Below, one piece after another: positions 5,254-31,135 of a stretch of 35,209 bases of DNA. Under the pieces are notes generated by a model. The model was given only the letters and a program-made list of their open reading frames with translations. It searched no databases and was not told the DNA's origin. Both the position numbers and the translations under genes were made by a program. Position 1 is the stretch's first letter; each line of letters starts with the position of its first letter. The stretch lies in assembly GCA_011390515.1 (NCBI GenBank), contig JAABSJ010000038.1, positions 1 to 35,209 on the forward strand. The letters run 5' to 3'. This DNA is from Oscillatoria sp. GTDB taxonomy: Bacteria > Cyanobacteriota > Cyanobacteriia > Cyanobacteriales > Laspinemataceae.

Positions 5254-5279
5254 TCATTACCAATGCGCCCTCGGGCATA

Positions 5280-5312: not shown

Positions 5313-5385
5313 ATTTAAACTCCCCCTTTACCAACATCATCGGGGTGGGGGGAGTCTGTTCAAATTCTTGCTTTTCTGTGGCAGG

Positions 5386-7599: not shown

Positions 7600-7623
7600 G
7601 TTTTTTTTAGCTCCTCCTCGCTA

Positions 7624-9894: not shown

Positions 9895-10135
9895 CGAGAC
9901 TCTCCTCTCTCTAGACAAGGACCTAATTTACATTCCACCCAAGGTGTTGCTTTGACGCAACGGTTCACTACAAAAGTTGAGTGTTGGGTGGCTTACAACT
10001 TTTTAAAAAACCTTTTAAGGGTTCTTAAGTTTGTTAGTTTAATCCAAACTCGGGATTTTGTGTAGTAACCGCTCTAAAAAACCAGCAAAATGCCGGTCCG
10101 TCGAGCAAGACAACCTTAGTGGCTTCTGTTCGTGC

Positions 10136-13389: not shown

Positions 13390-14193
13390 ATGTTTTGGAA
13401 CAAATCGTTACAACAAGTTACCACATTTTCAGTGGCGTTATGTTTGGGAATGGTAATGAGTCCGGGCCTGAATTTGCAGGCGAAGGCCCAAACTGAACCT
13501 GATTCCCTCTCTCCCGCTACTGCTGGTCCGTGGTTACTCAGTCAATCATTCAATCCTCCTGATCGCGGTGCGCCACAACGGACGGCAGAAGGGGGCACTA
13601 GAGGCTGTGGAACCTATCGATCGGGCCAAAAACCTTTGACGGCGTTAACGCCAGGTGATGCGATGCCCTTGACTTTGGCGGAGCATCCCACATTTTACTG
13701 GTATGTGCCCACATCAGGCCCCCAAACCTTAGAGTTTGAATTAGTCGAGGGGGATAATGAGGAGAATGTGGTTTATCAAGCCAAAATCCAGATTCCCCAA
13801 GGGGGGATTATTAGTCACAGTTTACCTGTGGATGATACGACAACCCTTAATCCGGGGAAAAGTTATCATTGGTACTTAAAAATGGTCTGCGATGCGAGCG
13901 ATCGCACTGGGGATATTGTCGTGGATGGCTGGATCGAACGAGTGGAACCGGATGAAACCATCGCCCTAGCACTCAAAAATGCCAAAACACCGAGCAGTCG
14001 GGTTGCGATCTATGCTCGGGAAGGGATTTGGCATGATGCTCTAAACATTCTGGCTCAAATGCGCCGGGATAATCCCGAGGATACCGTCCTGTTTGCCCGG
14101 TGGCAAGAGTTTCTTAATTCTGTGGAATTGGGGGACTTCGCAACCGAACCCCTTGTCGATGCGGTAGATGCGACTCAAATCAGTCAGGAGTAA
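13390..14193 (+). CDS. DUF928 family exported protein
   Basis: A 267-aa secreted or periplasmic protein. The signal peptide runs to about residue 34 (cleavage after AKA). The body matches DUF928: a Gly/Arg-rich TRGCGTYR segment, ALTPGDAMPLTLAEHPTFYWYVP, a beta-rich middle, LNPGKSYHWYLKMVCD, and a C-terminal helical part (ALKNAKTPSSRVAIYAREGIWHDALNILAQMRR). The ATG has GGAG about ten bases upstream. It ends four bases before the start of the haemagglutinin-CHAT gene, so the two are translationally close. DUF928 genes are known neighbours of CHAT, haemagglutinin and CHASE2 genes in cyanobacteria; the molecular function is unknown. Confidence 0.88.
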   Translation: MFWNKSLQQVTTFSVALCLGMVMSPGLNLQAKAQTEPDSLSPATAGPWLLSQSFNPPDRGAPQRTAEGGTRGCGTYRSGQKPLTALTPGDAMPLTLAEHPTFYWYVPTSGPQTLEFELVEGDNEENVVYQAKIQIPQGGIISHSLPVDDTTTLNPGKSYHWYLKMVCDASDRTGDIVVDGWIERVEPDETIALALKNAKTPSSRVAIYAREGIWHDALNILAQMRRDNPEDTVLFARWQEFLNSVELGDFATEPLVDAVDATQISQE

Positions 14194-14197
14194 TGGC

Positions 14198-17100
14198 ATG
14201 AAGTCATCATGGGTAATGGGCCCTTGCACCCTATTGGCCGTAGTTTGTTGGTGGGGCGTTTTCCTAGAAGTGGGAAGGACTCAATCGATAATTCCCGCTG
14301 TGGATGGAACCGGGACCCAAGTTACCCATGATGGCGATCGCATTGATATCCAGGGGGGCAGTACCTCCGGTGATGGCGCCAATCTCTTCCACAGTTTCGA
14401 TCGCTTTGGTTTAGACGCGGGTCAAACCGCTAACTTTTTGGCGAATCCCGACATCCAGAATATCTTCACTCGGGTTGTCGGGGGTAACCCTTCTCTGATT
14501 CAGGGTCTGCTACAAGTCAGCGGCAGCCACTCCAATCTATACTTAATCAACCCCGCAGGCATCCTCTTCGGTCCTACCGCTCAGTTAAACCTCACGGGGT
14601 CCTTTTTTGCGACCACTGCCAACTCCCTCGGATTTAACTCGGGAGCGAGTTTTGATATATTGGGAACCTCTTCCTATCACAGCCTCACCGGGTCCCCCAA
14701 TCAGTTTGATTTTACTCAATCTCAGGGCGGGAGTATTGTCAATGCCGGAGATTTGAGCGTCGGGTTTGGGGAAAATATTACCCTGATGGGGGGAACCGTC
14801 CTGAATACGGGCACCTTAACCGCCCCTGGGGGCAACATTACCATCGCCAGTGTCCCAGGACCCCATCGCGTCCGCTTGTCTCAGGAAGGAATGCTGCTAA
14901 GTCTGGAATTCCAGGCGATCGCCCCTAGGGCCGAAACGGGAATTTCCCCACTACAGTTACCCCAACTCCTCACGGAAGGAAATCTCACTCAGGGACACGC
15001 CCGAGGTGCCGTGGTGAATCCTGATGGCACGATTACCCTAACGGGTTCAAATTTATCCTGGTCCCCAGATCCGGGAACCACAATTGTCAGCGGTGAGATT
15101 TCCGTTGCCGATGGGGTGCAAACTGGGGGAACCGTCACGATTTTAGGGGAAAAAATTGGGGCGATCGCCTCAACTCTCGATGCTTCTGGGGGCAATGGCG
15201 GAGGCGAAGTCTATCTCGGGGGGGATTTCCAAGGCGGAAATCGATTGCCTAGTGCCGATCGCACCTTAATTACTCCCGATTCGACCATTCGAGTGGATGC
15301 CCTGAGTACCGGGAACGGGGGCCGTGCTATTATTTGGAGCGATCGCGTCACCGGATTCTATGGCAACATTAGCGCCCGAGGCGGGTCCAACCCCTTTGCT
15401 CCCTCCCAAAATGGCGGATTTGTAGAAGTTTCCGGCAAAGAACACCTGATTTTTGAGGGCATCGTTGATGTCAGTGCCACCCACGGAATTTCCGGAACCC
15501 TGCTCCTCGACCCCTTAAATATTATCATTTCTAATGATGAGGATAATGATGAGGATAATGATGATGATGATCCATCCAATATCGCGGATTTACTGCCGGA
15601 AATTTTAGCGGGTGACGACGATGAATTTGCCGACGAAACTATTACCATTTCTGCCGAAACCCTGCAAAATCAAAGCGGGAATATCATCCTAGAAGCCACG
15701 AATGATATTGAAATTGCCAATAATGTTTCCCTCGAATTTATCCCCGGGGAAACCATTGTATTTCGGGCGGATGCTGACAACGAAGGAACCGGCGCTTTTG
15801 TGATGAATCCATCCAGCCAGATCCGGGCTCAAGGGCGAGATATTGAGATCTTTGGAGCGAATATCACGGTTTCCACTATCGATACCTCCGCAGAAGGGGA
15901 TGGGGGAAATATCTCCCTCACCAGTAGCGATGGCAATATTCAAGCTCGTGAGCTAATTTCCCAGTCTACGGGTTCGGGGACGGGGGGAGATATTACCCTA
16001 GATGCGAGAGAAACTGGGGCGATCGACATCGGTACAGGCAACGGGATTTTAGATGCCTCTTCCGCCTCTGGGGATGGGGGGACAATCCGCCTGACCACTG
16101 AAACCGGGGATATTACGACCCGCACGATCCTTGCCAACTCCGATGGGGAGGGAACCGGGGGAGAGATTAGTCTCAACGCAGGCGGGGATGGCAACATCAT
16201 TATCGAAACTGGAAATGCAACAATTGATGCGTCTTCGGCATCCGGAGATGGGGGGATAATCGAGCTGAATACTGATGGCGGAGATATCACAACTCAGGAC
16301 CTGTCCACGGATTCTAATGAGACGGCAGGAACCATTACCCTGGATGCCAGCACGGGAACCCTGCGCTTGCGAGGCAACATCAACACGAACAATCTCAATG
16401 TGAGGGCTGATGCGATTGAGGCAACGGGCAACAGTTCCGCGACTGGGCGAGGAAGATTGGTCATAGAACCGGGTTCCGCAGATAGAAATGTGGCGATCGC
16501 CCCGACGGCCAATAACCAACCCGATGACACCTTGACCTTACGCAGCAACCTGTTGGAAGCTCTCACAAATGGATTTGATTCGATTGTCATTGGCAGGTCT
16601 GATAGTACCGGGAATATCACATTATACAATGAATTTGACTTTAATGCGCCGGTAACGATCGCAGGTGGAGAGACGCTCACGGGTCCCAACCAAAATACCA
16701 GATGGACTCTCACCGGCCCTGGCATCGGCACTCTCAGCGGCTATCCCAACGGCATGAGGTTTGAAAATATTGAAAACTTGACTGGCGGCAGTGCCAGTGA
16801 TACGTTTGTCTTTCGCGACGGGGCGCGCTTTGGCAGACTCGATGGTGCCGGAGGAAGCGATCGCCTGGATTATTCCGATTATACTGGGGACGTTACCGTT
16901 GATCTCCCCGAGAATATCGCCACGGGGACGAGCGGTGCTTTTAACATTGAAAATGTCACCCTGCCGGATCAGGAAGAACCTGAACCCGTACCGGAGCCAG
17001 AAGAAAATGAACCCCCTCCACCCCCAGCGAATGAGAACGAGGAGGACAACTCTTTTACCCCGGTGATCCAACCGGCCCCCAACATCGACCCCCTGCCATT

Positions 17101-18835
17101 AGCGCCTTCGCCATCAAGTACACCGGAAACCCCAACCCCTGAACCCACTGTTCCGACTTCTCCAGAACCGGATATCAGTGAGCCAATTCCGGTGGCAGAA
17201 CCCGAGCCAATTCCGGTGGCAGAACCCGCGCCAATTCCTCTACCAGAACCCGAGCCAATTCCGGTGGCAGAACCCGCGCCAATTCCTCTACCAGAACCCG
17301 AGCCAATTCCGGTGGCAGAACCCGCGCCAATTCCGGTGGCAGAACCCGCGCCAATTCCGGTAGTGGCAGAACCGGAGACTCAGGGTGCGGGGGGCTTACC
17401 GGAACCAGCGATCGCCACGCCAGTTCCGGCAGAACCCGCGCTCATTAATGTTCCCTCATTGACTGAAACGGGCTATCCTTGGACACCTGTCCTAGGCGAT
17501 CGGTTTATGGGGTCGCCGGGACTCGAAGAAAGCAATGAACGGGCTGTGTCTGATATTTTGACTCAACCGGCCATTCTCCAGTTGAACAATCGCAGCGACA
17601 TCGATCGCCTGCTAGATTCCGGTGAAATAGAACTGGCGATTGAAATGGGCGATCGCGTTTTTAGTGACGACTTTGAGGAATATTTAGGGCAGAATATTAA
17701 TCTTCCTTATTTATCCTTTGAAAGCATTCAGAACAAACTCCGGGAGATGGAAAACTTGACCGGCAAAAATGCCGGTCTGATTTATGTCTTTTCTCGAAAT
17801 GAGCAATTAGATTTAGTCTTAATCCCTCCCGTTGGCAAACCGATTTACAAAAGTGTTCCTGAAGCCAACCAAGCCGTTCTTTTCCAAGAAGTGCAGCGTT
17901 TGCAGGGAGAGATTGGCAATGTCGCCAGACGGCGCACCACCAGTTATTTAGCCCCGGCCCAGCAACTCTATCAATGGATCATTGCCCCCTTAGAACCCGA
18001 CCTCAAACGGTTGGGAATTGAGACGATCATTTTTAGTATGGATGCGGGATTGCGGATGCTCCCGATTGCCGCCTTACATGATGGAGAGCAGTTTTTAGTC
18101 GAAAAATACAGCCTCACCTTAATTCCCAGCCTGCATTTAACCGATGCCCGTTATAGCAACTGGAAAAATAGCGAAGTGTTAGCGATGGGATTGTCAGAAT
18201 TTTCTGACCAATATCCGTTACCTGCTGTGCCGGTGGAAATTAATACCATAGTTAATCAATTATGGCCTGGGACCGGCTTCCTGAATGAAGCCGTCACCCT
18301 GGCTAAATTGAAAGAACTGCGCCAACAAGAACCGTTCGGGATCATTCACCTCGCGACCCACGGCCAATTTAACTCGGGAGAACGAGATAACTCCTACCTC
18401 CAGTTATGGGGGGAAAAATTACACTTGGATCGGATGCAGCAGTTACAATGGAACGATCCGCCCGTAGAATTGTTAGTGTTGTCCGCCTGTCGCACGGCGA
18501 TCGGAGATTTAGAGGCTGAATTTGGCTTTGCTGGATTAGCTGTGCAAGCCGGGGTCAAATCAGCCGTCGCGAGTCTTTGGTACGCCAATGATGCGGGGAC
18601 ATTGGGACTGATGAGCGAGTTTTACCAAAACTTGCGATCGGCCCCGATTAAGGCAGAAGCATTGAGGAGAGCACAAATCGCCATGATTGGCGGGACCGTG
18701 CATCTGGAAAATGGGGCCTTGGTCGGGTCGTTCGGAAACGTAGAACTCCCACCGGAGCTTTCACGCCTCGGGAATCGAGAGTTAAGACATCCCTATTATT
18801 GGGCGGGCTTTACAATGATTGGCAGTCCCTGGTAG
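14198..18835 (+). CDS. Haemagglutinin-type exoprotein with C-terminal CHAT domain
   Basis: A 1545-aa exported protein. Order: signal peptide (1-29); TpsA-type secretion domain (about 30-140, with LYLINPAGILFGP); Gly-rich beta-helix (to about 860, including SSASGDGG repeats and an acidic Asp/Glu/Asn stretch near 445-460); a GGAGGSDRLDYSDY-type segment (about 880-900); Pro/Glu linker (about 925-1080); CHAT domain (about 1120-1545) with the His/Cys dyad in ATHG (His1388) and SACRTA (Cys1431). CHAT domains are caspase-like proteases. The ATG at 14198 has AGGAG at 14186 within the DUF928 end; an in-frame codon at 14168 would overlap that gene and lacks a site. No TpsB transporter is in the window. 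Substrate unknown. Confidence 0.9.
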   Translation: MKSSWVMGPCTLLAVVCWWGVFLEVGRTQSIIPAVDGTGTQVTHDGDRIDIQGGSTSGDGANLFHSFDRFGLDAGQTANFLANPDIQNIFTRVVGGNPSLIQGLLQVSGSHSNLYLINPAGILFGPTAQLNLTGSFFATTANSLGFNSGASFDILGTSSYHSLTGSPNQFDFTQSQGGSIVNAGDLSVGFGENITLMGGTVLNTGTLTAPGGNITIASVPGPHRVRLSQEGMLLSLEFQAIAPRAETGISPLQLPQLLTEGNLTQGHARGAVVNPDGTITLTGSNLSWSPDPGTTIVSGEISVADGVQTGGTVTILGEKIGAIASTLDASGGNGGGEVYLGGDFQGGNRLPSADRTLITPDSTIRVDALSTGNGGRAIIWSDRVTGFYGNISARGGSNPFAPSQNGGFVEVSGKEHLIFEGIVDVSATHGISGTLLLDPLNIIISNDEDNDEDNDDDDPSNIADLLPEILAGDDDEFADETITISAETLQNQSGNIILEATNDIEIANNVSLEFIPGETIVFRADADNEGTGAFVMNPSSQIRAQGRDIEIFGANITVSTIDTSAEGDGGNISLTSSDGNIQARELISQSTGSGTGGDITLDARETGAIDIGTGNGILDASSASGDGGTIRLTTETGDITTRTILANSDGEGTGGEISLNAGGDGNIIIETGNATIDASSASGDGGIIELNTDGGDITTQDLSTDSNETAGTITLDASTGTLRLRGNINTNNLNVRADAIEATGNSSATGRGRLVIEPGSADRNVAIAPTANNQPDDTLTLRSNLLEALTNGFDSIVIGRSDSTGNITLYNEFDFNAPVTIAGGETLTGPNQNTRWTLTGPGIGTLSGYPNGMRFENIENLTGGSASDTFVFRDGARFGRLDGAGGSDRLDYSDYTGDVTVDLPENIATGTSGAFNIENVTLPDQEEPEPVPEPEENEPPPPPANENEEDNSFTPVIQPAPNIDPLPLAPSPSSTPETPTPEPTVPTSPEPDISEPIPVAEPEPIPVAEPAPIPLPEPEPIPVAEPAPIPLPEPEPIPVAEPAPIPVAEPAPIPVVAEPETQGAGGLPEPAIATPVPAEPALINVPSLTETGYPWTPVLGDRFMGSPGLEESNERAVSDILTQPAILQLNNRSDIDRLLDSGEIELAIEMGDRVFSDDFEEYLGQNINLPYLSFESIQNKLREMENLTGKNAGLIYVFSRNEQLDLVLIPPVGKPIYKSVPEANQAVLFQEVQRLQGEIGNVARRRTTSYLAPAQQLYQWIIAPLEPDLKRLGIETIIFSMDAGLRMLPIAALHDGEQFLVEKYSLTLIPSLHLTDARYSNWKNSEVLAMGLSEFSDQYPLPAVPVEINTIVNQLWPGTGFLNEAVTLAKLKELRQQEPFGIIHLATHGQFNSGERDNSYLQLWGEKLHLDRMQQLQWNDPPVELLVLSACRTAIGDLEAEFGFAGLAVQAGVKSAVASLWYANDAGTLGLMSEFYQNLRSAPIKAEALRRAQIAMIGGTVHLENGALVGSFGNVELPPELSRLGNRELRHPYYWAGFTMIGSPW

Positions 18836-18913: not shown

Positions 18914-21100
18914 ATGTGGGCCAAGGTTAAGCTAAAAATTTGGGAATGGCGCAAAGTGTCAATCCTCGCACCGACGGTAGCGGGATTGGCGATTTTGCTG
19001 CGAATGAGTGGGTTATTGCAGGCACTGGAATTATCAACCCTGGATTTATTATTTCAACTGCGGCCTGTGCAGCCCCCGGACCCCCGAATTTTGATTATTG
19101 GAATTAACGAAAATGATTTGACTACTTTGGGAACCTGGCCGATCCCCGATGATGTCCTGGCGGAATTATTAGAGAAAATCAAGGCCCAGAAACCGAGAGT
19201 GATCGGCTTAGATATCTATCGGGATCTGCCCGTAGACCAGGGGTTTGAACAATTAAAAACGGTGTTTGAGACCACTCCGAATTTGATTGGAATTCGCAAA
19301 GTGGTGGGGAATCAACAGCAAGCGGAGATTGCACCGTCTCCCATTCTGGATGGCCTCGCTCAGGTGGGTGCCAATGATTTTCCCTGGGATATGGATAATA
19401 AAATTCGTCGGGGTTTTTTATATTTGAGCGATGAAGAGGGAACACTCGTCTTTAGCTTGGCATTTAAGTTAGCCATGATTTATCTGGAGGGAGAAGGGAT
19501 TGCTCCCCAGATGAAAGATGAGACTCGGATTGAATTAGGAAAAGCAGTATTTTCCCCTTTTAGTGCTTATGATGGCGGTTACGTCCGCGCCTCCGATGAA
19601 GGCTATCAAATTTTGTTAAATTATCGCGGTCCCCAGCGAAGTTTTGATAGTATCTCTTTGATGGATGTGTTAGAAAATCGAATTACCCCGGATTTAATGC
19701 GCGATCGCATCGTGTTAATTGGTTCGACGGCCATTAGTCTGAAAGATTTTTCTTTGACGCCTTATAGTAATACTTTATCGGGCATTCCGGAAGCGATGGC
19801 GGGAATAGAAATTCATGCTAATCTGACCAGCCATCTGATTGCAGCGGCCCTAGAGGGTGAATCAACCATTCACACAGCCTCCGAGGGGTTAGAATGGCTG
19901 TGGATTTTTCTGTGGGGGGTCGTTGGCGCTGGATTTACCTGTCAGTGGCGAGATATTAAAGGGTTACCTTATATCTCTTTTCCCCGGACTGGGGTGATGA
20001 TTTCCCTAGCCTGCTTGGTGTTAATCGTGACGGTTTATAGTGCATTTAGGCTCAGTTGGTGGATTCCCCTGGTTCCTCCGTTGTTAGCGTTAATCGGGTC
20101 AGCGATCACCACAATTGGTTATACGCTTTTAGAAAACCTCCAGTTGTCCTATAAACAAATTGAAGATTATTCGCGCACCTTAGAGCTTAAAGTTGAACAG
20201 CGAACGGTGGAGTTAAGAGATAAAAATCAACAGCTTAAACTTACCCTGGAACAGTTAAAAGCGGCTCAAAAACAAATGATTGCCCAGGAGAAATTGGCTT
20301 CTTTGGGTTCCTTAGCTGCTGGCATTGCTCATGAAATTAGAAATCCCCTCAACTTCGTCAATAACTTTGCTTCGATTTCCGTGGATTTAACCGAAGAACT
20401 GATAGAAGAACTGGATAATCCTCGGGAGAATTTAGAAGACTTAGATGTAGAATATCTGAATGAAACTTTGACTGACTTAAAAGATAGCGTGGTGGATATC
20501 AAACAGCATGGAGAAAGAATAGAAAAAATTGTTGAGGGAATGCTGCTGCTATCTCAGGCAGAACGAGGTCAGCGATCGCGGGTCAATCTTCATGCGATCT
20601 TAAGTGAGTCCATCGAGTTAGCCTCCCACAGTTACCAGAATAAAGACCCGAATTTCTCGATTGCGATCGAAACCGATTATGATAAAGCAATCAGTGAGAT
20701 CTATATTGTACCCCAGGATATGAGCCGCGCCTTTCTGAATCTCGTCAATAACGCCTGTTATGCCCTGTATGAGAAATACCAAGCTGATCCCGATGGATAT
20801 CGTCCTACCCTCACAGTAAAAACCCGTACAAGCAGCGATCGCCCCACCGAACCGGCCAGGGATCCCTGGGTAGAAATTCGGATCAGAGATAATGGTCCTG
20901 GGATTCCCGAGGACATCCTGGATCAAATCTTTAATCCCTTTTTTACCACCAAACCTACGGGAGAAGGCACGGGTTTAGGTTTATCTCTAACATACGAAAC
21001 CATCGTGGGACAGCATGGCGGACAGCTAGAGGTCAATAGCCACCTCGGAGATCATACCGAATTTATGATCATCTTACCCCAAACTAACCCATCTAACTAA
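18914..21100 (+). CDS. CHASE2-domain sensor histidine kinase
   Basis: A 728-aa membrane sensor kinase. Order: N-terminal membrane helix (about 17-35); extracytoplasmic CHASE2 domain (about 40-310; PPDPRILIIGINENDL, DLMRDRIVLIGSTA); three closely spaced helices (about 330-420); coiled coil (about 418-460); dimerisation/phosphoacceptor region with His473 in GIAHEIRNPLNF; HATPase with NLVNNACYAL, DNGPGIP and GTGLGLS. CHASE2 binds unknown extracellular signals. The ATG is backed by the family-typical N-terminus although no ribosome site is visible, so translation may be coupled or inefficient. Likely partner: the hybrid regulator 42 nt downstream. Confidence 0.93.
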   Translation: MWAKVKLKIWEWRKVSILAPTVAGLAILLRMSGLLQALELSTLDLLFQLRPVQPPDPRILIIGINENDLTTLGTWPIPDDVLAELLEKIKAQKPRVIGLDIYRDLPVDQGFEQLKTVFETTPNLIGIRKVVGNQQQAEIAPSPILDGLAQVGANDFPWDMDNKIRRGFLYLSDEEGTLVFSLAFKLAMIYLEGEGIAPQMKDETRIELGKAVFSPFSAYDGGYVRASDEGYQILLNYRGPQRSFDSISLMDVLENRITPDLMRDRIVLIGSTAISLKDFSLTPYSNTLSGIPEAMAGIEIHANLTSHLIAAALEGESTIHTASEGLEWLWIFLWGVVGAGFTCQWRDIKGLPYISFPRTGVMISLACLVLIVTVYSAFRLSWWIPLVPPLLALIGSAITTIGYTLLENLQLSYKQIEDYSRTLELKVEQRTVELRDKNQQLKLTLEQLKAAQKQMIAQEKLASLGSLAAGIAHEIRNPLNFVNNFASISVDLTEELIEELDNPRENLEDLDVEYLNETLTDLKDSVVDIKQHGERIEKIVEGMLLLSQAERGQRSRVNLHAILSESIELASHSYQNKDPNFSIAIETDYDKAISEIYIVPQDMSRAFLNLVNNACYALYEKYQADPDGYRPTLTVKTRTSSDRPTEPARDPWVEIRIRDNGPGIPEDILDQIFNPFFTTKPTGEGTGLGLSLTYETIVGQHGGQLEVNSHLGDHTEFMIILPQTNPSN

Positions 21101-21142
21101 CCCCTTCAATTCACCCTCTAATCCCTATAATCGGAGTAAGCT

Positions 21143-22393
21143 ATGCCACCCAAAATTTTATTTGTAGATGATGAACCTTCCTTTGAAAAATTAATTAGAA
21201 GGCAATTTCGCAAGCAGATTCGCTCAGAACAATATGAATTTATATTTGCCGGTAATGGGGTAGAAGCTCTGGAAGCGTTACAAGCTGACGCCGAAATTAG
21301 GGTGACCATCACCGATATTAATATGCCCCAAATGAATGGCCTAACCTTACTCGAAAAAATCCGCGAACTCGATTCCAGTATCGAAACCGTGGTCGTGTCT
21401 GCCTACAGCGACATGAAAAATATTAGAACTGCCATGAATCGCGGGGCTTTTGACTTTCTGACTAAACCCATCGATTTTGAAGATTTAGAAATAACCATAA
21501 ATAGAGCCTTAAGTCAAGTCCAAAAACTCAGGGAAGACCACAAAAAGCTATTGGATGCCCAAACCCAAATGATCCAAAATGAAAAAATGACCGCCTTGGG
21601 TCAATTAGTGGCAGGGGTCGCCCATGAAATTAATAACCCCGTGGGGTTTATTGCCAGTAATATTGAAATTGCTGAGGATTATATGAATGGACTCATCGAA
21701 CTGATCCAGTCTTATCAAGGGAAGTTTCCCGAACCCGGAGAAGATATTGCTGAGAAAATTCACGAAATTGACCTAGATTACATTGTCAATGACGTTCCCG
21801 AAGTGATTGCCTCCATGAAAGAAGGCAGCGAGCGAATATGTTATTTGAGTAATTCATTACGCACCTTTTCCCGGTCTGACACAACCACCAAAATTCCATT
21901 TAATATTCATGATGGCATCGATAGCACCCTGTTGATTTTAAAACATCGATTAAAATCTAGTGAAGTCAGACCCTCTATTGAAGTTAAAAAAGACTATGCA
22001 GAATTGTCTCCGGTGATTTGTTATCCGGGACAACTCAATCAGGTCTTTATGAATTTAATTGCCAATGCTATTGATGCCCTAGATGAGGCCAGTGTTGGAC
22101 GGGATTGGGCCGAAATGATGAAAAATCAGCCGAATATCATCACCATTCGCACTTACCCAATTGAGGGCGAGCAGGTGGCGATTTCGATTGCCGATAACGG
22201 TCCAGGCATGGGTGATGAAGTGATGGCCCGAGTTTTTGAATACTTATATACCACCAAACCCGTCGGTACCGGCACCGGCTTAGGATTATATATCAGTCAT
22301 CAAATTATCGCCGACAATCATAAGGGAAAATTACGCTGTGTGAGTACGCCAGGACAGGGAGCAGAATTTATTATTGAGATCCCGATGAAATAG
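21143..22393 (+). CDS. Response regulator-histidine kinase hybrid
   Basis: A 416-aa cytoplasmic protein. An N-terminal receiver (about 4-120) has the acidic pair DD (residues 9-10), phosphoacceptor Asp58 in TDINMPQMNG and Lys108 in LTKP. A coiled coil leads to a kinase core with His161 in GVAHEINNP, NLIANAIDAL, DNGPGMG and GTGLGLY. A receiver in front of a kinase suggests it takes phosphate from the CHASE2 kinase and then signals on. GGAG precedes the ATG. It has no DNA-binding domain, so the final output lies elsewhere. It is the last gene of the operon. Confidence 0.92.
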   Translation: MPPKILFVDDEPSFEKLIRRQFRKQIRSEQYEFIFAGNGVEALEALQADAEIRVTITDINMPQMNGLTLLEKIRELDSSIETVVVSAYSDMKNIRTAMNRGAFDFLTKPIDFEDLEITINRALSQVQKLREDHKKLLDAQTQMIQNEKMTALGQLVAGVAHEINNPVGFIASNIEIAEDYMNGLIELIQSYQGKFPEPGEDIAEKIHEIDLDYIVNDVPEVIASMKEGSERICYLSNSLRTFSRSDTTTKIPFNIHDGIDSTLLILKHRLKSSEVRPSIEVKKDYAELSPVICYPGQLNQVFMNLIANAIDALDEASVGRDWAEMMKNQPNIITIRTYPIEGEQVAISIADNGPGMGDEVMARVFEYLYTTKPVGTGTGLGLYISHQIIADNHKGKLRCVSTPGQGAEFIIEIPMK

Positions 22394-23075: not shown

Positions 23076-23426
23076 ATGAATGACAAACGAAACCCAGACT
23101 CAGAAAAGCAAAATCGGCAAAAGGAACTAGCAGAGCGAGAACGAGAAATTGCGGAGCGAGAGCGATCGCTGCGACTGCGGGAAATGGAGATGGAGCTATA
23201 CAAAGGAGAACCTCCCCTGCATCAAACCATTAAACAGGAACCGACGGAATCGAAGCTGCAACGCTGGGGAAGACAACTCAAGCGGGTGGGAAAGTATGCT
23301 CTGATGGTGGTGGTGGTGTTTGCTGCTGTCCGGGTGGGAACGATGGTGGCGAGTGCGGTGATTGTTGGGGCGATCGCTTGGGTCGGTTACAAACTTTTTT
23401 TGGACTCAGATAAAACCAATAAATAG
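23076..23426 (+). CDS. Coiled-coil membrane protein beside dynamin genes
   Basis: A 116-aa protein of unknown function. Residues about 8-42 are a highly charged coiled coil (EREREIAERERSLRLREMEMEL); 60-72 is basic (SKLQRWGRQLKR); about 73-108 is hydrophobic (YALMVVVVFAAVRV, then VASAVIVGAIAWVGYKLF), giving one long or two short membrane segments and a short polar tail. The ATG follows GAGGG. The stop lies 11 nt before the first dynamin gene, whose ribosome site overlaps this stop region, so the two are almost certainly co-transcribed. A role as membrane adaptor for the dynamins is inferred from position alone. Confidence 0.75.
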   Translation: MNDKRNPDSEKQNRQKELAEREREIAERERSLRLREMEMELYKGEPPLHQTIKQEPTESKLQRWGRQLKRVGKYALMVVVVFAAVRVGTMVASAVIVGAIAWVGYKLFLDSDKTNK

Positions 23427-23437
23427 AGGGAATACCA

Positions 23438-25522
23438 ATGGTTTATAAAATGGAAGCCGCAAGTTTTCTTAACAATTTGGAACGAGTGGCTCAAGTCCGA
23501 TTTGAGGTGGCAGCCTGTTTGGATCGAATGGTTGACCTGTTAGAAACTGACGAATCCCAAGGAGAGCAAACTTCTGGAAAACTGGGCTTAGAAAGCAACA
23601 TTGCTGACCTGACTCTCGGGAGCAAGAATTTACGGCAGGGGGTGTTTAGACTGCTGGTTCTGGGCGACATGAAGCGGGGGAAAAGCACCTTCTTGAATGC
23701 CTTAATTGGAGAGAATCTATTACCGGCAGATGTGAATCCTTGTACAGCATTGCTCACCGTGCTACGCTACGGAAAACAGAAAACGGTGACGGTTTACTTC
23801 AAAGAGGGCAAAACCCCAGAACGGTTAGATTTTCCCACCTTCAAGCAGCGTTATACCATTGACCCACAAGAGGCCAAAACCCTAGAACAGGAGAAAAAAT
23901 TAGCCTTTCCCGAAGTGAACTATGCGGTGGTTGAATATCCTTTAGCATTACTGGAAAAGGGTATTGAAATTGTAGACAGTCCGGGGCTGAATGATACGGA
24001 AGCGCGGAATGAAATGTCCCTGACTTATATTAATAACTGTCACGGAATTTTGTTCGTACTTCGGGCGGGTCAGCCGGTAACGTTGGAGGAACGCCGCTAT
24101 TTGGATAATTATATCAAAGGGCGCGGATTAACGGTTTTCTTCCTGATTAATGCTTGGGATGAAATTAAAAAGGGACTAATTGACCCTGATAATGCGGAAG
24201 AACTCCAAGAAGCGGAGGAAAAACTGCGGCAGGTGTTTCATACCAATTTGACCGACTATTGTCAGATGGATGGCTATGATTTGTATCCTGAACGAGTGTT
24301 TGAAATTTCTTCACTACAGGCATTGCGGCGACGAGTGAAAGACCCGGAGCAATCTTTAGAAGGGACGGGATTTCCGGAGTTTATGGGGGCGATTAATCGG
24401 TTTTTGACGGAAGAAAGAGCGGTAGCTCAAATGCGGCAAGCGCGAACTTTAGCCCGCCAGAGTACCGATCGCGTGCGGGAGGCGATCGCCCGTCGGATTC
24501 CTTTACTCGATCGCGATGTCAACGAGTTGAAAGCGCGGATTTCCTCCGTAGAACCGGAATTCGAGAAACTGAATGACATCCGCGATCGCTTCTCCGATGA
24601 AATTAGAACCATCCGGGATCAGAAAGCACGGGGAATTTCCGAGTCATTGCGCGCCTACATTCTTAATCTGGGCAGTACCTTTGAAGCCGATTTTTTACGG
24701 TATCAACCGGATTTAGGCTTTTTTGACTCCTTAAACCAAGGCAAACGGGAAGAATTTAATGCTGCCTTTCAACAGGGATTTGAACAATACCTGAATGATA
24801 AAATCACCGCCTGGGAAAAGACCGCTAACCAAGAAATGCAGGACGCTTTTACCCAACTTGCCAAGCGAGCATCCGAGTATGGTTCAGCCTATAGTCGCAT
24901 CACCCAGACGATGACTGACAAATTAATTGGGCAGCAGATTTATACCCGCAGCAATTTTAATTCAGAAGACGATTCCCCCACCTGGGCGAGTTGGGCAATG
25001 GGATTAGTTTCCCTGGCAACGGGTAACATCGCAGGGGTCTTTTTAGCCGGTGCAGGGTTCGACTGGAAAAACATTCTTGTTAACTCTCTATCGGTTATTG
25101 GGATCTATAGCTTTTTAGCCATTTTTTCGATTCCGGTTCTGTTAACTGGACCCCTGGGCATCTTGCTGGTGGGATTAGGCGTGGGTGCATTGCAAGCAGA
25201 ACAAGGTCGCAAAGAATTGATTAAGGCCACGAAAAAAGAGTTGATTAAATATCTGCCTCAAATCGCCGAGGAACAGTGTCCAGTTATTCATAAAGCGATT
25301 ACGGACTGTTTTGATACTTATGACCGCGAAGTGATGAAACGGCTCAATGATGATATCAAATCTCGCCGTTTGGAATTAGATAATTTGCTCCAACAAAAAC
25401 AGTCCCGAGAAATTAATCGAGACAGTGAGTTAAAACGTTTGCAAAAACTAGAAGCAGACATCATCTCAGAATGCCGGACCGTTAACCGGGTTTATGAGTC
25501 CTTAATCTCATACAATGGCTGA
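23438..25522 (+). CDS. Bacterial dynamin-like protein (BDLP1 type), first copy
   Basis: A 694-aa large GTPase. The structurally characterised Nostoc punctiforme BDLP1 is of almost the same length, and the sequence is recognisably of that type. Seen: P-loop GDMKRGKST (Gly76-Thr84, Lys82), the switch Thr in NPCTALLTVLRYG, G3 motif DSPGLND (Asp180), and NAWDEI at the usual TKxD position. The helical neck and trunk follow, with a hydrophobic paddle at about 515-590 (WAMGLVSLATGNIAGVFL, LLTGPLGILLVGLGVG). Such proteins bind and bend membranes and polymerise in a nucleotide-dependent way. The ATG follows GAGGG. A paralogue lies 113 nt downstream. Confidence 0.93.
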   Translation: MVYKMEAASFLNNLERVAQVRFEVAACLDRMVDLLETDESQGEQTSGKLGLESNIADLTLGSKNLRQGVFRLLVLGDMKRGKSTFLNALIGENLLPADVNPCTALLTVLRYGKQKTVTVYFKEGKTPERLDFPTFKQRYTIDPQEAKTLEQEKKLAFPEVNYAVVEYPLALLEKGIEIVDSPGLNDTEARNEMSLTYINNCHGILFVLRAGQPVTLEERRYLDNYIKGRGLTVFFLINAWDEIKKGLIDPDNAEELQEAEEKLRQVFHTNLTDYCQMDGYDLYPERVFEISSLQALRRRVKDPEQSLEGTGFPEFMGAINRFLTEERAVAQMRQARTLARQSTDRVREAIARRIPLLDRDVNELKARISSVEPEFEKLNDIRDRFSDEIRTIRDQKARGISESLRAYILNLGSTFEADFLRYQPDLGFFDSLNQGKREEFNAAFQQGFEQYLNDKITAWEKTANQEMQDAFTQLAKRASEYGSAYSRITQTMTDKLIGQQIYTRSNFNSEDDSPTWASWAMGLVSLATGNIAGVFLAGAGFDWKNILVNSLSVIGIYSFLAIFSIPVLLTGPLGILLVGLGVGALQAEQGRKELIKATKKELIKYLPQIAEEQCPVIHKAITDCFDTYDREVMKRLNDDIKSRRLELDNLLQQKQSREINRDSELKRLQKLEADIISECRTVNRVYESLISYNG

Positions 25523-25635
25523 AATGGCATCCGGTTTCTAGAACCTTTTTGTCCGGGTCTCGTTTTCAGGTCGAGAAACGACACAGAAGGACTGCGATCG
25601 GATAAACTTGATTGACCGATATTCCCTTAATCAGC

Positions 25636-27714
25636 ATGAGCTATAAAATGGAACCCAAAAGTTTTCTGACGAATTTAGAGCGGGTCGCCGAAGTGCGAGC
25701 AGATGTGGCTAATGCGTTCAGCCAGATAGCCGATATTTTGAAAGAATCTGAAACAGCAGGGGCGAAAAAATCTGGGCAATTGGGCTTAGAACGAGAAATC
25801 GAAGATACTCAGAAAGCCAGCAACAATTTACGGCATGGGGTCTTCCGCCTGCTGGTTTTGGGAGATATGAAGCGGGGGAAAAGCACGTTTCTCAATGCCT
25901 TAATTGGAGAGAATATTTTACCCAGTGATGTCAACCCTTGTACGGCACTGCTGACGGTGTTGCGCTACGGACCGGAAAAGAAGGTAACGGTGTATTTTAA
26001 GGATGGAAAAAGTCCCCAAACGCTAGATTTTAAGAGTTTCAAACAGAACTACACCATCCCTCCCTCGGAAGCGAAACAACTGGAACAGAAGCAGCAACAA
26101 GCGTTTCCTGATGTAGATTATGCGGTGTTAGAGTACCCGCTATCGTTACTGCAAAAAGGAGTGGAAATTGTTGATAGTCCGGGACTGAATGATACGGAAT
26201 CGCGCAATGAATTGTCTCTGGGGTATATTAACAATTGTCATGCGATTTTATTTGTGATGAGGGCATCACAACCTTGCACCCTGGGAGAACGCCGCTATTT
26301 GGAGAATTATATTAAGGGGCGGGGATTGAGTGTGTTCTTTCTGATTAATGCTTGGGATCAGGTGCGGGAGAGTTTAATTGACCCGGATGATGAGGAAGAA
26401 TTGCAGGATTCTGAGACGCGATTGCGGCAAGTTTTTAAGGCAAATTTGGCGGAATATTGTGTGGTGGATGGGCATGATATTTATGAGGAGCGGGTGTTTG
26501 AAATTTCAGCAATTCAAGCGTTGAGACGACGGATTAAGGATGCGATCGCCTCGTTGGAGGGAACGGGATTTTCCAGTTTTTTGGGGGCGCTGAATACGTT
26601 TTTAACCCAGGAACGGGCGGTTTCTGAATTGCGGCAGGCGCGAACTTTAGCACGTCAAACCTCCACCCGAGTGCGGGAGGCGATCGCCCGTCGGATTCCG
26701 TTACTGGATGGGGATGTGAATGAGTTGAAGCAGCGGATTAGTTCGGTTGAACCGGAGTTTAAAGCTTTAACAAATATTCGCGATCGCTTCAAGGATGAAA
26801 TCAAACAGGTTCGGGATAGCAAAGCGCGGGCGATCGCTGATTCATTCCGCACTTATGTCCTCAACTTAGGCAATACCTTTGAAAGCGATTTCTTAACCTA
26901 TCAACCGGATATCAAATTTGGAGACTTTATCGACAAAGCCAAACGAGAAAGCTTTGAAGCGCGGTTTCGGCAGGCATTTGAGCAGTACATTAATGATAAA
27001 TTATCCGCTTGGAGCCTCACCGCCGAACAAGAGATGAATGGGGCGTTCATTCAATTAGCCAAAAGTGCCGAGCAGTACGGGGCCGACTACACCAAAGTCA
27101 CCACTAAAATTACCGAGAAACTCACGGGCCAAAAAATCCATGCCGGTAGCAACAGTTTACCGGAAGATAGCTCTCCCGCCTGGGCAAATTGGGCAATGGG
27201 ATTAGTTTCATTAGCCACAGGAAATATAGCAGGAGCCGCCCTCATGGGAGCGGGCTTTGACTGGAAAAATATCCTGTTAAATATCGTAGCCGTGATTGGA
27301 ATTAGTACGGCAATTACCACGGTTTTTGGGGTGATTTTAGGCCCGATTACTTTAGCCCTAGTGGGGTTAGGCGTGGGTTTGTTCCAAGCCGATCGCGCTC
27401 GCATAGAAGTGGTCAAGGTGACCAAAAAAGAACTGGTCAAATATCTGCCCCAAGTGGCAGAGGAGCAGTGGCAGCCGATTCACGATGCGGTTAAAGAGTG
27501 TTTTGATGCTTATGACCGAGAAGTGACTCAACGCATTGATGATGATATCAAATCCCGTCAAGCGGAATTAGATAATTTGCTGGGACAAAAGCAATCCCAT
27601 GAAATTAATCGCAGCAGTGAATTAGAACGACTCAAAAAGCTAGAGTCGGATGTCAGTTTGGAGGCGCGAAATATTGAGAGCGAATATCAGGATTTACTGA
27701 TTGCTGTAGGTTGA
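25636..27714 (+). CDS. Bacterial dynamin-like protein (BDLP1 type), second copy
   Basis: A 692-aa paralogue of the preceding protein, collinear over its whole length with long identical blocks (for example FRLLVLGDMKRGKSTFLNAL and NPCTALLTVLRYG). All motifs are intact: Lys82 in the P-loop, DSPGLND and NAWDQV. The membrane paddle (WAMGLVSLATGNIAGAAL, LLNIVAVIGISTA) is more diverged. The ATG at 25636 is chosen because MSYKME aligns with MVYKME of the first copy; a TTG 24 nt upstream is in frame. No clear ribosome site is seen. Two intact neighbours suggest a heteromeric machine rather than redundancy, but that is inference. Confidence 0.92.
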   Translation: MSYKMEPKSFLTNLERVAEVRADVANAFSQIADILKESETAGAKKSGQLGLEREIEDTQKASNNLRHGVFRLLVLGDMKRGKSTFLNALIGENILPSDVNPCTALLTVLRYGPEKKVTVYFKDGKSPQTLDFKSFKQNYTIPPSEAKQLEQKQQQAFPDVDYAVLEYPLSLLQKGVEIVDSPGLNDTESRNELSLGYINNCHAILFVMRASQPCTLGERRYLENYIKGRGLSVFFLINAWDQVRESLIDPDDEEELQDSETRLRQVFKANLAEYCVVDGHDIYEERVFEISAIQALRRRIKDAIASLEGTGFSSFLGALNTFLTQERAVSELRQARTLARQTSTRVREAIARRIPLLDGDVNELKQRISSVEPEFKALTNIRDRFKDEIKQVRDSKARAIADSFRTYVLNLGNTFESDFLTYQPDIKFGDFIDKAKRESFEARFRQAFEQYINDKLSAWSLTAEQEMNGAFIQLAKSAEQYGADYTKVTTKITEKLTGQKIHAGSNSLPEDSSPAWANWAMGLVSLATGNIAGAALMGAGFDWKNILLNIVAVIGISTAITTVFGVILGPITLALVGLGVGLFQADRARIEVVKVTKKELVKYLPQVAEEQWQPIHDAVKECFDAYDREVTQRIDDDIKSRQAELDNLLGQKQSHEINRSSELERLKKLESDVSLEARNIESEYQDLLIAVG

Positions 27715-28292
27715 GAGACCTAACCCCCCGGCCCCCTTCCCTAAGAGGGCCGGGGGAGCAAGAGGGTTGGGGGATGAAAGAGACCTAACCCCCCGGCCCC
27801 CTTCCCTAAGAGGGCCGGGGGAGCAAGAGGGCTCAAGAAAGTAGGGGGAGGAAGAGACCTAACCCCCCGGCCCCCTTCCCTAAGAGGGCAGGGGGAGCAA
27901 GAGGGTAGAGGGAGGAAGAGACCTAACCCCCCGGCCCCCTTCCCTAAGAGGGCAGGGGGAGCAAGAGGGTAGGGGGAGGAAGAGACCTAACCCCCCGGCC
28001 CCCTTCCCTAAGCTAATCTTGTAGGGGTTTTGTAGGGGCGCAATGCTTGCGCCCCCTAGCTTTGGAAAACAGACCCTAGCTTTGGAAAACAGACCCTAGC
28101 TTTGGGCGCAAGCATTGCGCCCCTACAAAAAATAACGATTTTTCGTAGGCGGCTTCAAAACCCCTACAAGATTAGTTCCCTAAGAGGGCAGGGGGGGAAG
28201 AGGGTTGGGGGATGAAAGAGACCTAACCCCCCGGCCCCCTTCCCTAAGAGGGCAGGGGGAGCAAGAGGGTTGGGGGAGGAAGAGGGTAGTTA
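27714..28292. repeat. Tandem array of about 64-nt GC-rich repeats, six copies
   Basis: Units beginning AGAGACCTAACCCCCC start at 27714, 27779, 27853, 27917, 27981 and 28217, with periods of 65, 74, 64 and 64 nt before the interruption. Each holds a hairpin (CCCCCGGCCC..CTAAGAGGGCCGGGGG). The fifth unit is split by a MITE (28013-28175). The array follows the second dynamin stop directly and runs into the open frame upstream of the DUF559 gene. Confidence 0.9.
28013..28175. mobile_element. 163-bp MITE with 19-bp terminal repeats and 9-bp target duplication
   Basis: Terminal inverted repeats CTAATCTTGTAGGGGTTTT (28013-28031) and its exact reverse complement (28157-28175). TTCCCTAAG flanks it on both sides (28004-28012 and 28176-28184), although each repeat unit of the host array has this sequence only once, so it is a true target duplication. 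The interior has an inverted GGGGCGCAATGCTTGCGCCCC-type pair and two and a half copies of a 20-nt CTAGCTTTGGAAAACAGACC unit. It has no coding capacity. Confidence 0.9.
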
Positions 28293-28327
28293 TTGTCAAG
28301 GATGAAAATTTAGTCACGAGATCACTC

Positions 28328-28747
28328 ATGGATAAACTACAGCCTAGAAAAGAGGACAGACAAATCCAGGAAGGTCGTCACAATATTGTGATTGGACAAA
28401 AGGTAAGTTCAGATAAAGTGCAGCAAGCCAAGGAATTCCGCCGTAAGATGACCGCAGAAGAGAAAATTTTATGGCAATACCTGCGTGCTAATCGATTGAA
28501 TGGCTGGCACTTTCGGCAACAACAGATTATTGATGGATTTATTACAGATTTCTATTGTCACGCTGCTGGATTAGTCGTAGAAGTGGATGGAAAAATTCAT
28601 GAAAAGCAAGTGGAATATGATTTAGAACGTGACCAAATTATCACCAGCCCTAACCTGCGTGTGTTACGAATAAAAAATGAGGAGATTAGACAAAATATTG
28701 ATCAGGTGATTATGCGTATTGCAGCAGCCTGTCAAGAAGAAATTTAA
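28328..28747 (+). CDS. DUF559 family endonuclease-like protein
   Basis: A 139-aa protein with the DUF559 core of the PD-(D/E)xK nuclease fold, related to very short patch repair nucleases: AKEFRRKMTAEEKILWQYLRANRLNGWHFRQQ, the acidic DGFITDFYC, VVEVDGKIH and the end NLRVLRIKNEEI. The open frame extends back to 28205, but that part is repeat array, so the ATG at 28328 is preferred; its ribosome site is weak. DUF559 proteins are common in repeat-rich cyanobacterial DNA and their substrates are unknown. It lies between dynamin gene sets and may be a passenger. Confidence 0.8.
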   Translation: MDKLQPRKEDRQIQEGRHNIVIGQKVSSDKVQQAKEFRRKMTAEEKILWQYLRANRLNGWHFRQQQIIDGFITDFYCHAAGLVVEVDGKIHEKQVEYDLERDQIITSPNLRVLRIKNEEIRQNIDQVIMRIAAACQEEI

Positions 28748-28885
28748 CCGACCAAACCCCTTCCCACCCCTCCAAAAGCACTTGCTCTCCAGAAGAGAGA
28801 GATCGGGAATCAATGTCTTTCCCGCAACCGGGAAAATCACCAATGAACTCATGTCACCCCCCTCCCACCAATAAAAAAATTTCCT

Positions 28886-29011
28886 TATTCTCCCTCTCCT
28901 AAAAGGAGAGGGCCGGGGAGAGGTCCCTCCGGAATCAAGAGTTTTCCCTATTCTCCCTCTCCTAAAAGGAGAGGGCCGGGGAGAGGTCCCTCCGGAATCA
29001 AAAGTTTTCCC
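28886..29011. repeat. 63-nt direct tandem duplication
   Basis: Two adjacent units (28886-28948, 28949-29011) share TATTCTCCCTCTCCTAAAAG, GGGCCGGGGAGAGGTCCC and TCCGGAATCAA.AGTTTTCCC. Each can form a hairpin (CTCTCCT-AAA-AGGAGAG). The second copy ends 26 nt before the third dynamin-like gene, so it lies in its leader. Confidence 0.85.
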
Positions 29012-29037
29012 TAAAATTGTTAACCCGAGGCAAAAAA

Positions 29038-30717
29038 ATGAAGCAGGAAATTTATCAAGATGTAGTCAGGAATATTAGGGCAGCATTAGGAGCATTGGAA
29101 CTGGATAAAAGTTTACCCCTATATCAAGATAGCCTGACCCTTTGCGAAGCGCTAGAAAATCCCGGCTTTCGGATTGCGGTTTTTGGTCCTTTTAATTATG
29201 GCAAATCTACCTTGCTCAATGCTTTGCTGGGACAACGGACTTTGCCGATTGATTTAATTCCGACAACGGGGGCGGCAATTCATGTTAGATATGGAGAAGA
29301 ACTGAGCGCTAAAATCACTTTAAATGATGGACAGGTGATCGGCGATCGCGGCACGGCTATTCTCAAGCAATATGCTATTTTGGACCAGGATCGCCGGATG
29401 CGAAATGATGTGGCTCAGGTTGAGGTGTTCTGTCCTCATTCTTTCCTACAAATTGGGGTAGAATTTTTAGATTTGCCGGGAACCAATGACCGGGAAGAAC
29501 AGGATAATCTCGTCCGAAAGCAATTGTTAACCGCAGATTTGGTGGTGCAGGTGCTGGATGCTCGTAAGTTGATGACTCTGGGAGAACGGGAAAATCTCAG
29601 GGATTGGCTGCTCGATCGCGGGATTGAAACGGTGGTGTTTGCGGTCAATTTTATGAATTTAATGGACCCGGATGACCAAAAAGAAGTGTCCAGTCGGATG
29701 CGGTTTGTGGCGGAAAGTTTTCGGTCCAATTTACCTCCGGGGGTTAGTAATTTGTATCGGGTTGATGCTTTACCGGCCCTGAGAGCAAGACTGAAAGGGG
29801 ATGCGGCAGCAGCACAGACTACGGGTCTACCGATGTTTGAATCGGCGCTGCAAAGTATTGTGGCGTTTCATCAAGAAAAAACTGTCAATTGGTTGCCGCG
29901 CTTAGAGGCGATCGCCTCTCAAATCTGCCAGTCTCTAACGGTAAAAATTCAAGGGGTGACTACGGAGTTAGCCGTGGCTGAAGAAAAACAGGCGAATAAG
30001 ATTCAGTTGCAACAAAAGGCGGAAAAACTGATTAAACAAGGCTTTGAGGGGAGCGTTTCTGATTTACAAAGTAAGCTGTATTTACCGAACCTGTTAAAGC
30101 GCTATGAACTAGAGGCGATCGCCGCACTCCAACAGGGTCAATTTCGCACCTGGGAAACCCAATCTTTTCAACCGGGAATGGTTCAATATCAGCAAGAGAT
30201 TACCAGTTGGGTGAATAAAGCTTGTGAGTTTTTCAACCACCCCCACCCCGGAACATTAACCCTAAAATTTCCTGAACCTCCCTCTGTTACCGTTCCCCAA
30301 ACTCCCTCGGCCCCTAAGTCATCAAAACCTCCTACCTCTAGCACCGGGGAGAAGACATTGGATTGGCTATTAGAAAGTCCTGTGGGCAATACGGTTGCTC
30401 GAAGCGCTTATTATATCCTGAATCGAATTATTGAACCCAATTCGTCCCGTCCCGTCAGTCCTGTGAATCCTGTGAATCCTGTGAATCCTCCTGATGTACA
30501 AACCGCCTATAAAAAAGCGGTGGAGGATTATTTGACTCAGTTCAGTGAAGCGGCTTTTTCGACCCTGCGCGACTATGAAGAAATCGCCCTGCCTGTGATG
30601 CGATTTCAACCCCCGAAGCCCTCATCGGAGATGATGACAAAGCGCCATCAAATCCAGTTTTTACAGAATGTATTGGAGGCGTTAACTCAGGATTTGCAGG
30701 GGTTGAAGGAGACTTGA
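29038..30717 (+). CDS. Divergent dynamin-like GTPase
   Basis: A 559-aa dynamin-family protein distinct from the two BDLP copies. Seen: P-loop GPFNYGKST (Gly50-Thr58, Lys56), switch region DLIPTTGAAIHVRYG, G3 motif DLPGTND, and NFMNLMDPDD where the base-recognition motif is expected, which departs from N/TKxD. The C-terminal part is helical with a Pro/Ser-rich linker (about 415-445), a weakly hydrophobic stretch (PVGNTVARSAYYILNRII) and a VNPVNPVNP micro-repeat. No strong paddle helices as in BDLP1. The ATG follows GAGG with good spacing; a TTG at 29017 is in frame. The J-domain gene follows 79 nt downstream. Confidence 0.88.
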   Translation: MKQEIYQDVVRNIRAALGALELDKSLPLYQDSLTLCEALENPGFRIAVFGPFNYGKSTLLNALLGQRTLPIDLIPTTGAAIHVRYGEELSAKITLNDGQVIGDRGTAILKQYAILDQDRRMRNDVAQVEVFCPHSFLQIGVEFLDLPGTNDREEQDNLVRKQLLTADLVVQVLDARKLMTLGERENLRDWLLDRGIETVVFAVNFMNLMDPDDQKEVSSRMRFVAESFRSNLPPGVSNLYRVDALPALRARLKGDAAAAQTTGLPMFESALQSIVAFHQEKTVNWLPRLEAIASQICQSLTVKIQGVTTELAVAEEKQANKIQLQQKAEKLIKQGFEGSVSDLQSKLYLPNLLKRYELEAIAALQQGQFRTWETQSFQPGMVQYQQEITSWVNKACEFFNHPHPGTLTLKFPEPPSVTVPQTPSAPKSSKPPTSSTGEKTLDWLLESPVGNTVARSAYYILNRIIEPNSSRPVSPVNPVNPVNPPDVQTAYKKAVEDYLTQFSEAAFSTLRDYEEIALPVMRFQPPKPSSEMMTKRHQIQFLQNVLEALTQDLQGLKET

Positions 30718-30796
30718 CTCTCCCGAGATGAGCTGGAGTGCTGTAAACAAATTTGCTACCCCGTTTGGGGGAAGTTGAACTAAGGAGGTTTTGGGA

Positions 30797-31135
30797 ATGA
30801 TTGACCGATTGGAAGCCAAGTTTCAGGCATTGGAAATGGATGCAGAATTGGCGAAGCTGAAACAGATGAACTGGCGATCGCCTCCCGATGCCACAACTCC
30901 CCCTACCCAAACACCCCCGCCACCTGTCAGCGATCAAATGGCGCGGTTTTACCAAATCCTCGGACTGAACTCTAATGCTTCGTTGCCAGAGGTGAAACAA
31001 GCTTATCGAGCTTTACTGAAAAAATGGCATCCGGATTTATTTTATGATAATCCCGAAAAGCAAAAAAGGGCTCAGGAAGTCGTTCAAAAAATGAATGAAA
31101 TTTATGAGAAACTATGCGATAATCAAGGGAAATAA
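30797..31135 (+). CDS. Small J-domain protein (DnaJ-like co-chaperone)
   Basis: A 112-aa protein: N-terminal helix (LEAKFQALEMDAELAKLKQM), Pro/Thr-rich linker (about 28-45), and a C-terminal J-domain (about 51-107) with YQILGL, EVKQAYRALLKKWHPDLF and the essential HPD motif intact. There is no Gly/Phe region or zinc domain, so it is a type III J-protein that would recruit and stimulate Hsp70 at a specific client. The ribosome site TAAGGAGG is near perfect, eight bases before the ATG. It lies 79 nt after the dynamin-like gene on the same strand, suggesting that this GTPase or its membrane complex is the client. Confidence 0.88.
   Translation: MIDRLEAKFQALEMDAELAKLKQMNWRSPPDATTPPTQTPPPPVSDQMARFYQILGLNSNASLPEVKQAYRALLKKWHPDLFYDNPEKQKRAQEVVQKMNEIYEKLCDNQGK

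Follow-up and report, generated by a model that had tools for sequence, protein, structure and literature searches.

A conserved cyanobacterial dynamin module with a J-domain element whose helix is similar to that at the C-terminus of TIGR04376 and, to a lesser degree, to alpha5 of PspA/Vipp1

The DNA analysed here (the window) is a stretch of 35,209 nucleotides from Oscillatoria sp. (GCA_011390515.1, contig JAABSJ010000038.1), which at 23076-31135 carries a block of genes for a coiled-coil membrane protein (MP), two tandem dynamins of the BDLP1 type (BDLP1-a and BDLP1-b), a divergent dynamin-like GTPase (DLP3) and a J-domain protein (JP). We describe the gene content of this block, its conservation in cyanobacteria, the split and fused forms of its J element, which is either a separate gene or a C-terminal tail of DLP3 (the fused protein is termed DLP3-J), and a helix ahead of the J-domain that matches, at the level of sequence, the C-terminal helix of the TIGR04376 family and, more weakly, alpha5 of Vipp1 and PspA. 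We consider it quite possible, if somewhat short of probable, that in the BDLP1 module the J element on the DLP3 side brings DnaK to polymers of the PspA family, much as CDJ2 does for algal VIPP1.

JP (30791-31135, plus strand) contains a J-domain recognised by Pfam (PF00226, 54.8 bits) together with the HPD motif, which is retained in all of the aligned rows (16/16). N-terminal to it lies a helix of about 25 residues (approximately residues 5-28 of JP, 30803-30874, plus strand), kept in both split and fused forms, with the consensus EELEAKFxxWELDEEIARMKA over the 16 rows and a Phe that is invariant in 16/16. A 30-position motif of this helix alone was searched against five whole genomes (G000, which is that of the window, G191, G129, G107 and G171), and its best matches, besides DLP3-J, JP and other proteins joining the helix to a J-domain, fell on the C-terminus of a protein of about 190 residues in each of them (5/5; E 5e-6 to 1.3e-4). 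This protein is TIGR04376 in both genomes in which it was scanned (G000 and G129; 275 and 285 bits), and those of the other three look alike. Weaker matches, located at alpha5 by position, were to PspA in G000 (E 0.2) and to PspA/Vipp1 in G191 (E 0.6 and 0.8); matches to unrelated proteins start at E 0.98, beside these. Pairwise comparison by hhalign gave 57.9 for the motif against TIGR04376 and 36.7 against PspA/Vipp1, with 100 column shuffles each peaking at 17.4 and 18.9, respectively; among 31 comparison cluster families only JP itself (family 23) stood higher, the other 30 reaching at most 16.6. Further, NCBIfam matched JP residues 4-25 to positions 166-187 of the 189 of TIGR04376 (E 0.009), and the ungapped identity to the TIGR04376 tail was 15/23 for the JP helix of L039 (the best), 13/23 for that of the window and 10/23 for the fused L057. 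In a profile of alpha5 made from 23 distinct PspA/Vipp1 segments and run over 603 ORFs (open reading frames) plus added rows, DLP3-J/JP filled the top 11 non-PspA places, these rows being one family and hence one observation. The L..F..L/W pattern of the motif aligns with L193, F197 and L200 of Nostoc punctiforme Vipp1, the invariant Phe falling on F197. A weak match of the motif (E 0.67) was also seen in a 268-residue protein (L164, G191:C1:5026015) that looks PspA-like by eye, with apparently repeated hairpin segments.

TIGR04376 is present in 89/96 cyanobacterial genomes and, among 14 controls, in Synechococcus elongatus only. In hhalign it aligned with PspA/Vipp1 at a probability of 95.1 over 182 columns, from the first residues through alpha5, and PF04012 scored 22.1 bits (cut-off 33.9) on one of two TIGR04376 proteins scanned, with no match in the other. 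The shared helix forms its extreme C-terminus. Proteins of this 'hypothetical' family (G000:C9:12557-13123, listed as L156 and L172, and L170-L199) may possibly represent a further ESCRT-III-like protein. What TIGR04376 and PspA/Vipp1 have in common with JP and DLP3-J is their C-terminal or alpha5 helix: JP aligned with PspA/Vipp1 over 23 columns, confined to the alpha5 segment, and lacks an alignable alpha1-alpha2/3 hairpin. Judged from these alignments, JP and DLP3-J are not members of the PspA/Vipp1/ESCRT-III superfamily and share with it the alpha5-like segment only.

The dynamins of the block fall into two kinds. BDLP1-a (23438-25522) and BDLP1-b (25612-27714), both on the plus strand, are full-length proteins with Dynamin_N (PF00350) and the bacterial dynamin helical domain (PF21808; 592 and 614 bits), which defines them as BDLP1-type; they are 66% identical to each other, and BDLP1-b scores 1043.6 bits against the BDLP chain 2j68_A. 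BDLP1-a as a query found three strong matches in its own genome, all within the block, the remainder being at E 0.014 or worse. DLP3 (29017-30717, plus strand) has Dynamin_N (PF00350, 89.5 bits), and Pfam found no PF21808 in it at E up to 0.1. It is a dynamin-like GTPase of a clade other than that of BDLP1; a model of its fused relative DLP3-J gave 2j69 as the first Foldseek match, with poor superposition (TM-score 0.29). In the scheme of PMC5827413 BDLP1 belongs to a tandem pair, Tandem A/B, whose other member is a second dynamin. The block likewise has two differing dynamins side by side, one of them BDLP1, and DLP3 is probably the 'Tandem A' partner, the name being our assignment. The BDLP1 of L069, which lies beside a DLP3-J fusion, scores 1417 bits against 2j68 over residues 2-693, nearly all of the chain, which makes it very probable that the BDLP1 of the crystal structures is part of the present module.

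We surveyed 194 cyanobacterial genomes of the class, counting G000, and scored only the best first-look candidates, so that some relatives may be missed. Full-length DLP3 occurs in 23/194 genomes at 458 bits or more, the next matches being at most 110 bits and mostly other dynamins; BDLP1 occurs in 31/194 at E 1e-60 or better, including every genome with DLP3 (23/23), and DLP3 was seen in 0/163 genomes without BDLP1 (Fisher 2e-23, phylogeny ignored). Eight genomes have BDLP1 without DLP3 (G136, G012, G109, G118, G135, G145, G159 and G176). MP (23076-23426, plus strand, 116 residues), the first gene of the module, combines an N-terminal charged coiled coil with a C-terminal hydrophobic stretch that is supported by hydropathy; its AlphaFold2 (AF2) model, which is of low confidence (pLDDT 70.6, pTM 0.24), consists of two long helices. 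It was found in 30/194 genomes. Among those with DLP3 only G161 and G189 do not show it (21/23 do); divided by BDLP1 instead, it occurs in 22/31 genomes with BDLP1 and in 8 without it. In 14/23 genomes DLP3 has BDLP1 at most 1.6 kb upstream and in the same orientation; the two are on different contigs in 8/23, several of them fragmented assemblies, while in G162 the two are distant on one contig and an MP match lies about 115 bp upstream of DLP3. At 37 named loci BDLP1 precedes DLP3 in 33, with gaps of -4 bp to 3.9 kb, and MP relatives stand upstream in 32/37. The four without an upstream BDLP1 are L048 and L062 (both ending at a contig edge), L071 (truncated DLP3) and L051, in which BDLP1 is truly missing across the 10 kb of the locus. 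L071 (Spirirestis) has MP followed by a truncated DLP3 (a 230-residue ORF) and no BDLP1, and resembles a decayed module. The surroundings vary: four Laspinema relatives share a flanking CHASE2 histidine kinase, 17 Nostocales loci a cysteine synthase-like gene by our reading, and Microcoleus relatives have other genes. The earlier note on this DNA had taken rare adjacency as the observation that would count against its proposal of a single system, and the genes are not rarely adjacent. Recurrence of the same block in varying surroundings argues for MP-BDLP1-DLP3 as a conserved module and a functional unit. The notion of one system thus holds for these three, which keep their co-occurrence, order and strand amid differing flanks, and not for the J-protein, which belongs to some lineages only.

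The J element takes two forms. At 20/37 named loci, all Nostocales-named, DLP3 is 708-764 residues long and carries the JP segment as its C-terminal part; the loci of the Laspinema relatives (4/37) resemble the window in having this segment as a gene of its own. Among genomes with DLP3, a protein joining helix and J-domain is fused in G191, G116, G107 and G129 and separate in G000. In a tree of the J-domains a branch parts the fused rows from the separate ones. Support for the fork between the two groups is weak (87/81, 'open'), and a pair of long-branch rows attaches there, for which reason we draw no history from it. At L122 (G131:C70), in a genome without a DLP3 match, a membrane protein whose C-terminal helix resembles the JP motif is encoded directly upstream of a J-protein.

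Several elements of this arrangement are on record. For the dynamin next to BDLP1, PMC6104087 describes a C-terminus resembling DnaJ, with possible binding of DnaK and dimerisation with BDLP1, and a separate cyanobacterial 'chaperone' clade of dynamins has DnaK downstream (PMC5827413). The earlier note's view that the composition as one system is not described was therefore too strong, the tandem pair being in PMC5827413 and the DnaJ-like domain on the neighbour of BDLP1 in PMC6104087; likewise, we rejected the combination of a dynamin pair with a J-domain as a candidate for something undescribed. An ESCRT-III-like helix before a J-domain was not found in print, in a literature mostly outside subscription journals and exclusive of supplements, and no mention of a third partner such as MP or of the split J form was met with in the accessible literature, though neither was searched for by its own terms. 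In N. punctiforme BDLP1 (2j68/2j69/2w6d) stands beside a divergent dynamin (B2IZD2), and the window shares the arrangement of BDLP1 beside a divergent dynamin. The window differs in having two copies of BDLP1 and a gene of its own for the J-domain, whereas the DnaJ-like C-terminus of B2IZD2 is on the dynamin itself (PMC6104087). Campylobacter Cj-DLP1/2 and other bacterial pairs are also heterotypic pairs in one operon, but the accessible text of PMC6104087 mentions no J-domain or MP-like gene with Cj-DLP1/2. The Chlamydomonas CDJ2-HSP70B-VIPP1 system, in which Hsp70 reaches an ESCRT-III-like polymer by way of a J-protein (PMC10602608), resembles the role proposed here for JP; it differs in that dynamin is mentioned 0 times in the accessible text of that paper.

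In the mechanism that we propose, the BDLP1/DLP3 pair would dimerise and remodel or seal the membrane, for which MP would serve as anchor or recruiter. The helix of the J element would dock on a PspA-family (ESCRT-III) polymer at its hairpin, in the manner of alpha5 between subunits, and the J-domain would recruit DnaK; assembly or disassembly of the polymer would thereby be coupled to the dynamin. Removal of alpha5/6 from Vipp1 abolishes rings and filaments, and the F197K/L200K double change at Interface 3 severely inhibits assembly (PMC8281802). In vitro, VIPP1 is both assembled and taken apart by HSP70B-CDJ2-CGE1 (PMC10602608), and in Synechocystis DnaK2 and DnaK3 co-purify with Vipp1, the word 'DnaJ' being absent from the main text (PMC4297356). 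The complete sequence of events, in which DLP3-J docks through its alpha5-like helix on TIGR04376, PspA or Vipp1 and hands their polymers to DnaK while BDLP1 remodels the same membrane, is put forward tentatively and as rather doubtful. The client may be any of the PspA-family proteins; the closest in sequence is TIGR04376.

A number of observations weigh against delivery of DnaK to PspA-family polymers by this helix. The J segment was not found at 13/37 named loci, three of them (L042, L071 and L073) partial or at a contig edge, and a protein joining helix and J-domain (E 1e-25 or better) occurs in only 5/23 genomes with DLP3. The J element is limited to a few lineages, and the core module therefore works without it. 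A standalone helix-plus-J protein is found in G171, in which no DLP3 was matched, so that the helix accompanies the J-domain rather than the dynamin. In NCBIfam this protein matches TIGR04376 at E 0.059 only, and the fused L057 tail does not match it at E up to 0.1. The matches of the alpha5 profile to DLP3-J/JP, though ranked first, are weak (best E 0.012), and the motif run against PDB sequences returned no Vipp1 or PspA at E up to 10. Finally, Vipp1 and PspA have about 4 additional residues within the motif, and the helix is of low confidence in the AF2 model (block pLDDT 33-46).

The J-domain might instead act on the dynamins themselves, DnaK disassembling polymers of BDLP1 and DLP3, or the C-terminal extension might be a domain for assembly of the BDLP1-DLP3 heterodimer, an idea found in PMC6104087; on this view the PspA-like helix would serve as a coiled coil or a docking element for BDLP1, DLP3 or MP. 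BDLP1 and DLP3 co-occur and the J-domain is fused to a dynamin, DnaK binding and dimerisation with BDLP1 were proposed in PMC6104087, and DnaK genes lie beside another cyanobacterial clade of dynamins (PMC5827413). This explanation, however, does not account for the match of the linker helix to TIGR04376 and to alpha5 of PspA/Vipp1, nor for the helix-plus-J protein of G171 in a genome without DLP3, and we regard it as somewhat unlikely. The placement of the helix at the extreme C-terminus of TIGR04376, a usual position for a tag, could also mean that it is an address, a third protein that reads the C-termini of TIGR04376 and PspA as well guiding the J-protein to the same place on the membrane with the polymer untouched. 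We know of no reader protein of that kind, which counts against this idea. The equivalent helix of Vipp1 contacts the hairpin directly (PMC8281802), and an address tag seems improbable. The earlier note also thought of membrane defence. PADLOC matched LeoA/LeoBC models on the three dynamins at 39-61 bits, without a LeoA/B/C set, and the NCBIfam LeoA subfamily matched BDLP1-b only, at 21 bits (cut-off 325); among the flanking clusters is one (C5) that presumably resembles the restriction-endonuclease-fold Uma2 family. An anti-phage or membrane-defence system is very improbable, even if DynA delays lysis after phage infection (PMC9950537) and the best Leo match reaches 60.8 bits, since these matches are weak, the flanking conserved clusters include genes that we read as cysteine synthase-, ketol-acid reductoisomerase- and MnmE-like metabolic ones, and no defence system was recognised among the conserved neighbour clusters, which were read rather than scanned by PADLOC.

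As to the layout of the block, an ORF check placed all five genes of the earlier note at the coordinates that it gave, on the plus strand, and their P-loop, DSPG/DLPG and HPD motifs, read from the translations, are intact as it had said; its gene list overlooked a DUF559 gene (28205-28747, PF04480) between BDLP1-b and DLP3. By our reading of the sequence the starts are likelier at ATG 29038 for DLP3 and ATG 30797 for JP. MP and BDLP1-a are separated by 11 bp, the two BDLP1 genes by 89 bp and DLP3 and JP by 73 bp. Between BDLP1-b and DLP3 lies a 1.3 kb insert (27715-29016, plus strand) that holds repeats and the DUF559 gene, whereas the same gap is only 75-76 bp in the close relatives L038 and L041; L038-L041 are the nearest named DLP3 relatives of G000, a Laspinema/Oscillatoria-like cyanobacterium, at 86-91% identity. 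Hence we rejected the DUF559 gene as a component of the module and place the repeat-rich insert outside its core, and the block probably represents a single operon that is here interrupted by the insert. Imperfect repeats of about 60 bp, rich by eye in CCCCCGGCCCCC, surround the DUF559 gene at 27714-28300. Elsewhere in the window, the photosystem I genes psaL and the psaA/psaB pair (4337-9918) are ordinary, and a 477-residue ORF (10506-11939) has no Pfam match at E 0.001. A 1555-residue protein (14168-18835), in which a TPS secretion domain is combined with a CHAT domain at the C-terminus, is encoded just upstream of a CHASE2 histidine kinase, which is followed by a response regulator-histidine kinase hybrid (both at 18914-22393); the four Laspinema relatives likewise have these last two ahead of the module.

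If the proposal is correct, the J element would be the functional counterpart of CDJ2 in cyanobacteria, in which no CDJ2 homologue was found according to the accessible text of PMC3720927, and the shared helix offers a candidate answer to which J-protein serves Vipp1/PspA in these organisms. Bacterial dynamins would also be joined physically and directly to bacterial ESCRT-III, with dynamin, Hsp70 co-chaperone and ESCRT-III-type helix on one polypeptide. BDLP1 is a founding structure among bacterial dynamins, and its role in the cell has been described as unclear (PMC5827413, PMC9950537); the shared helix offers a testable answer as to what that role may be.

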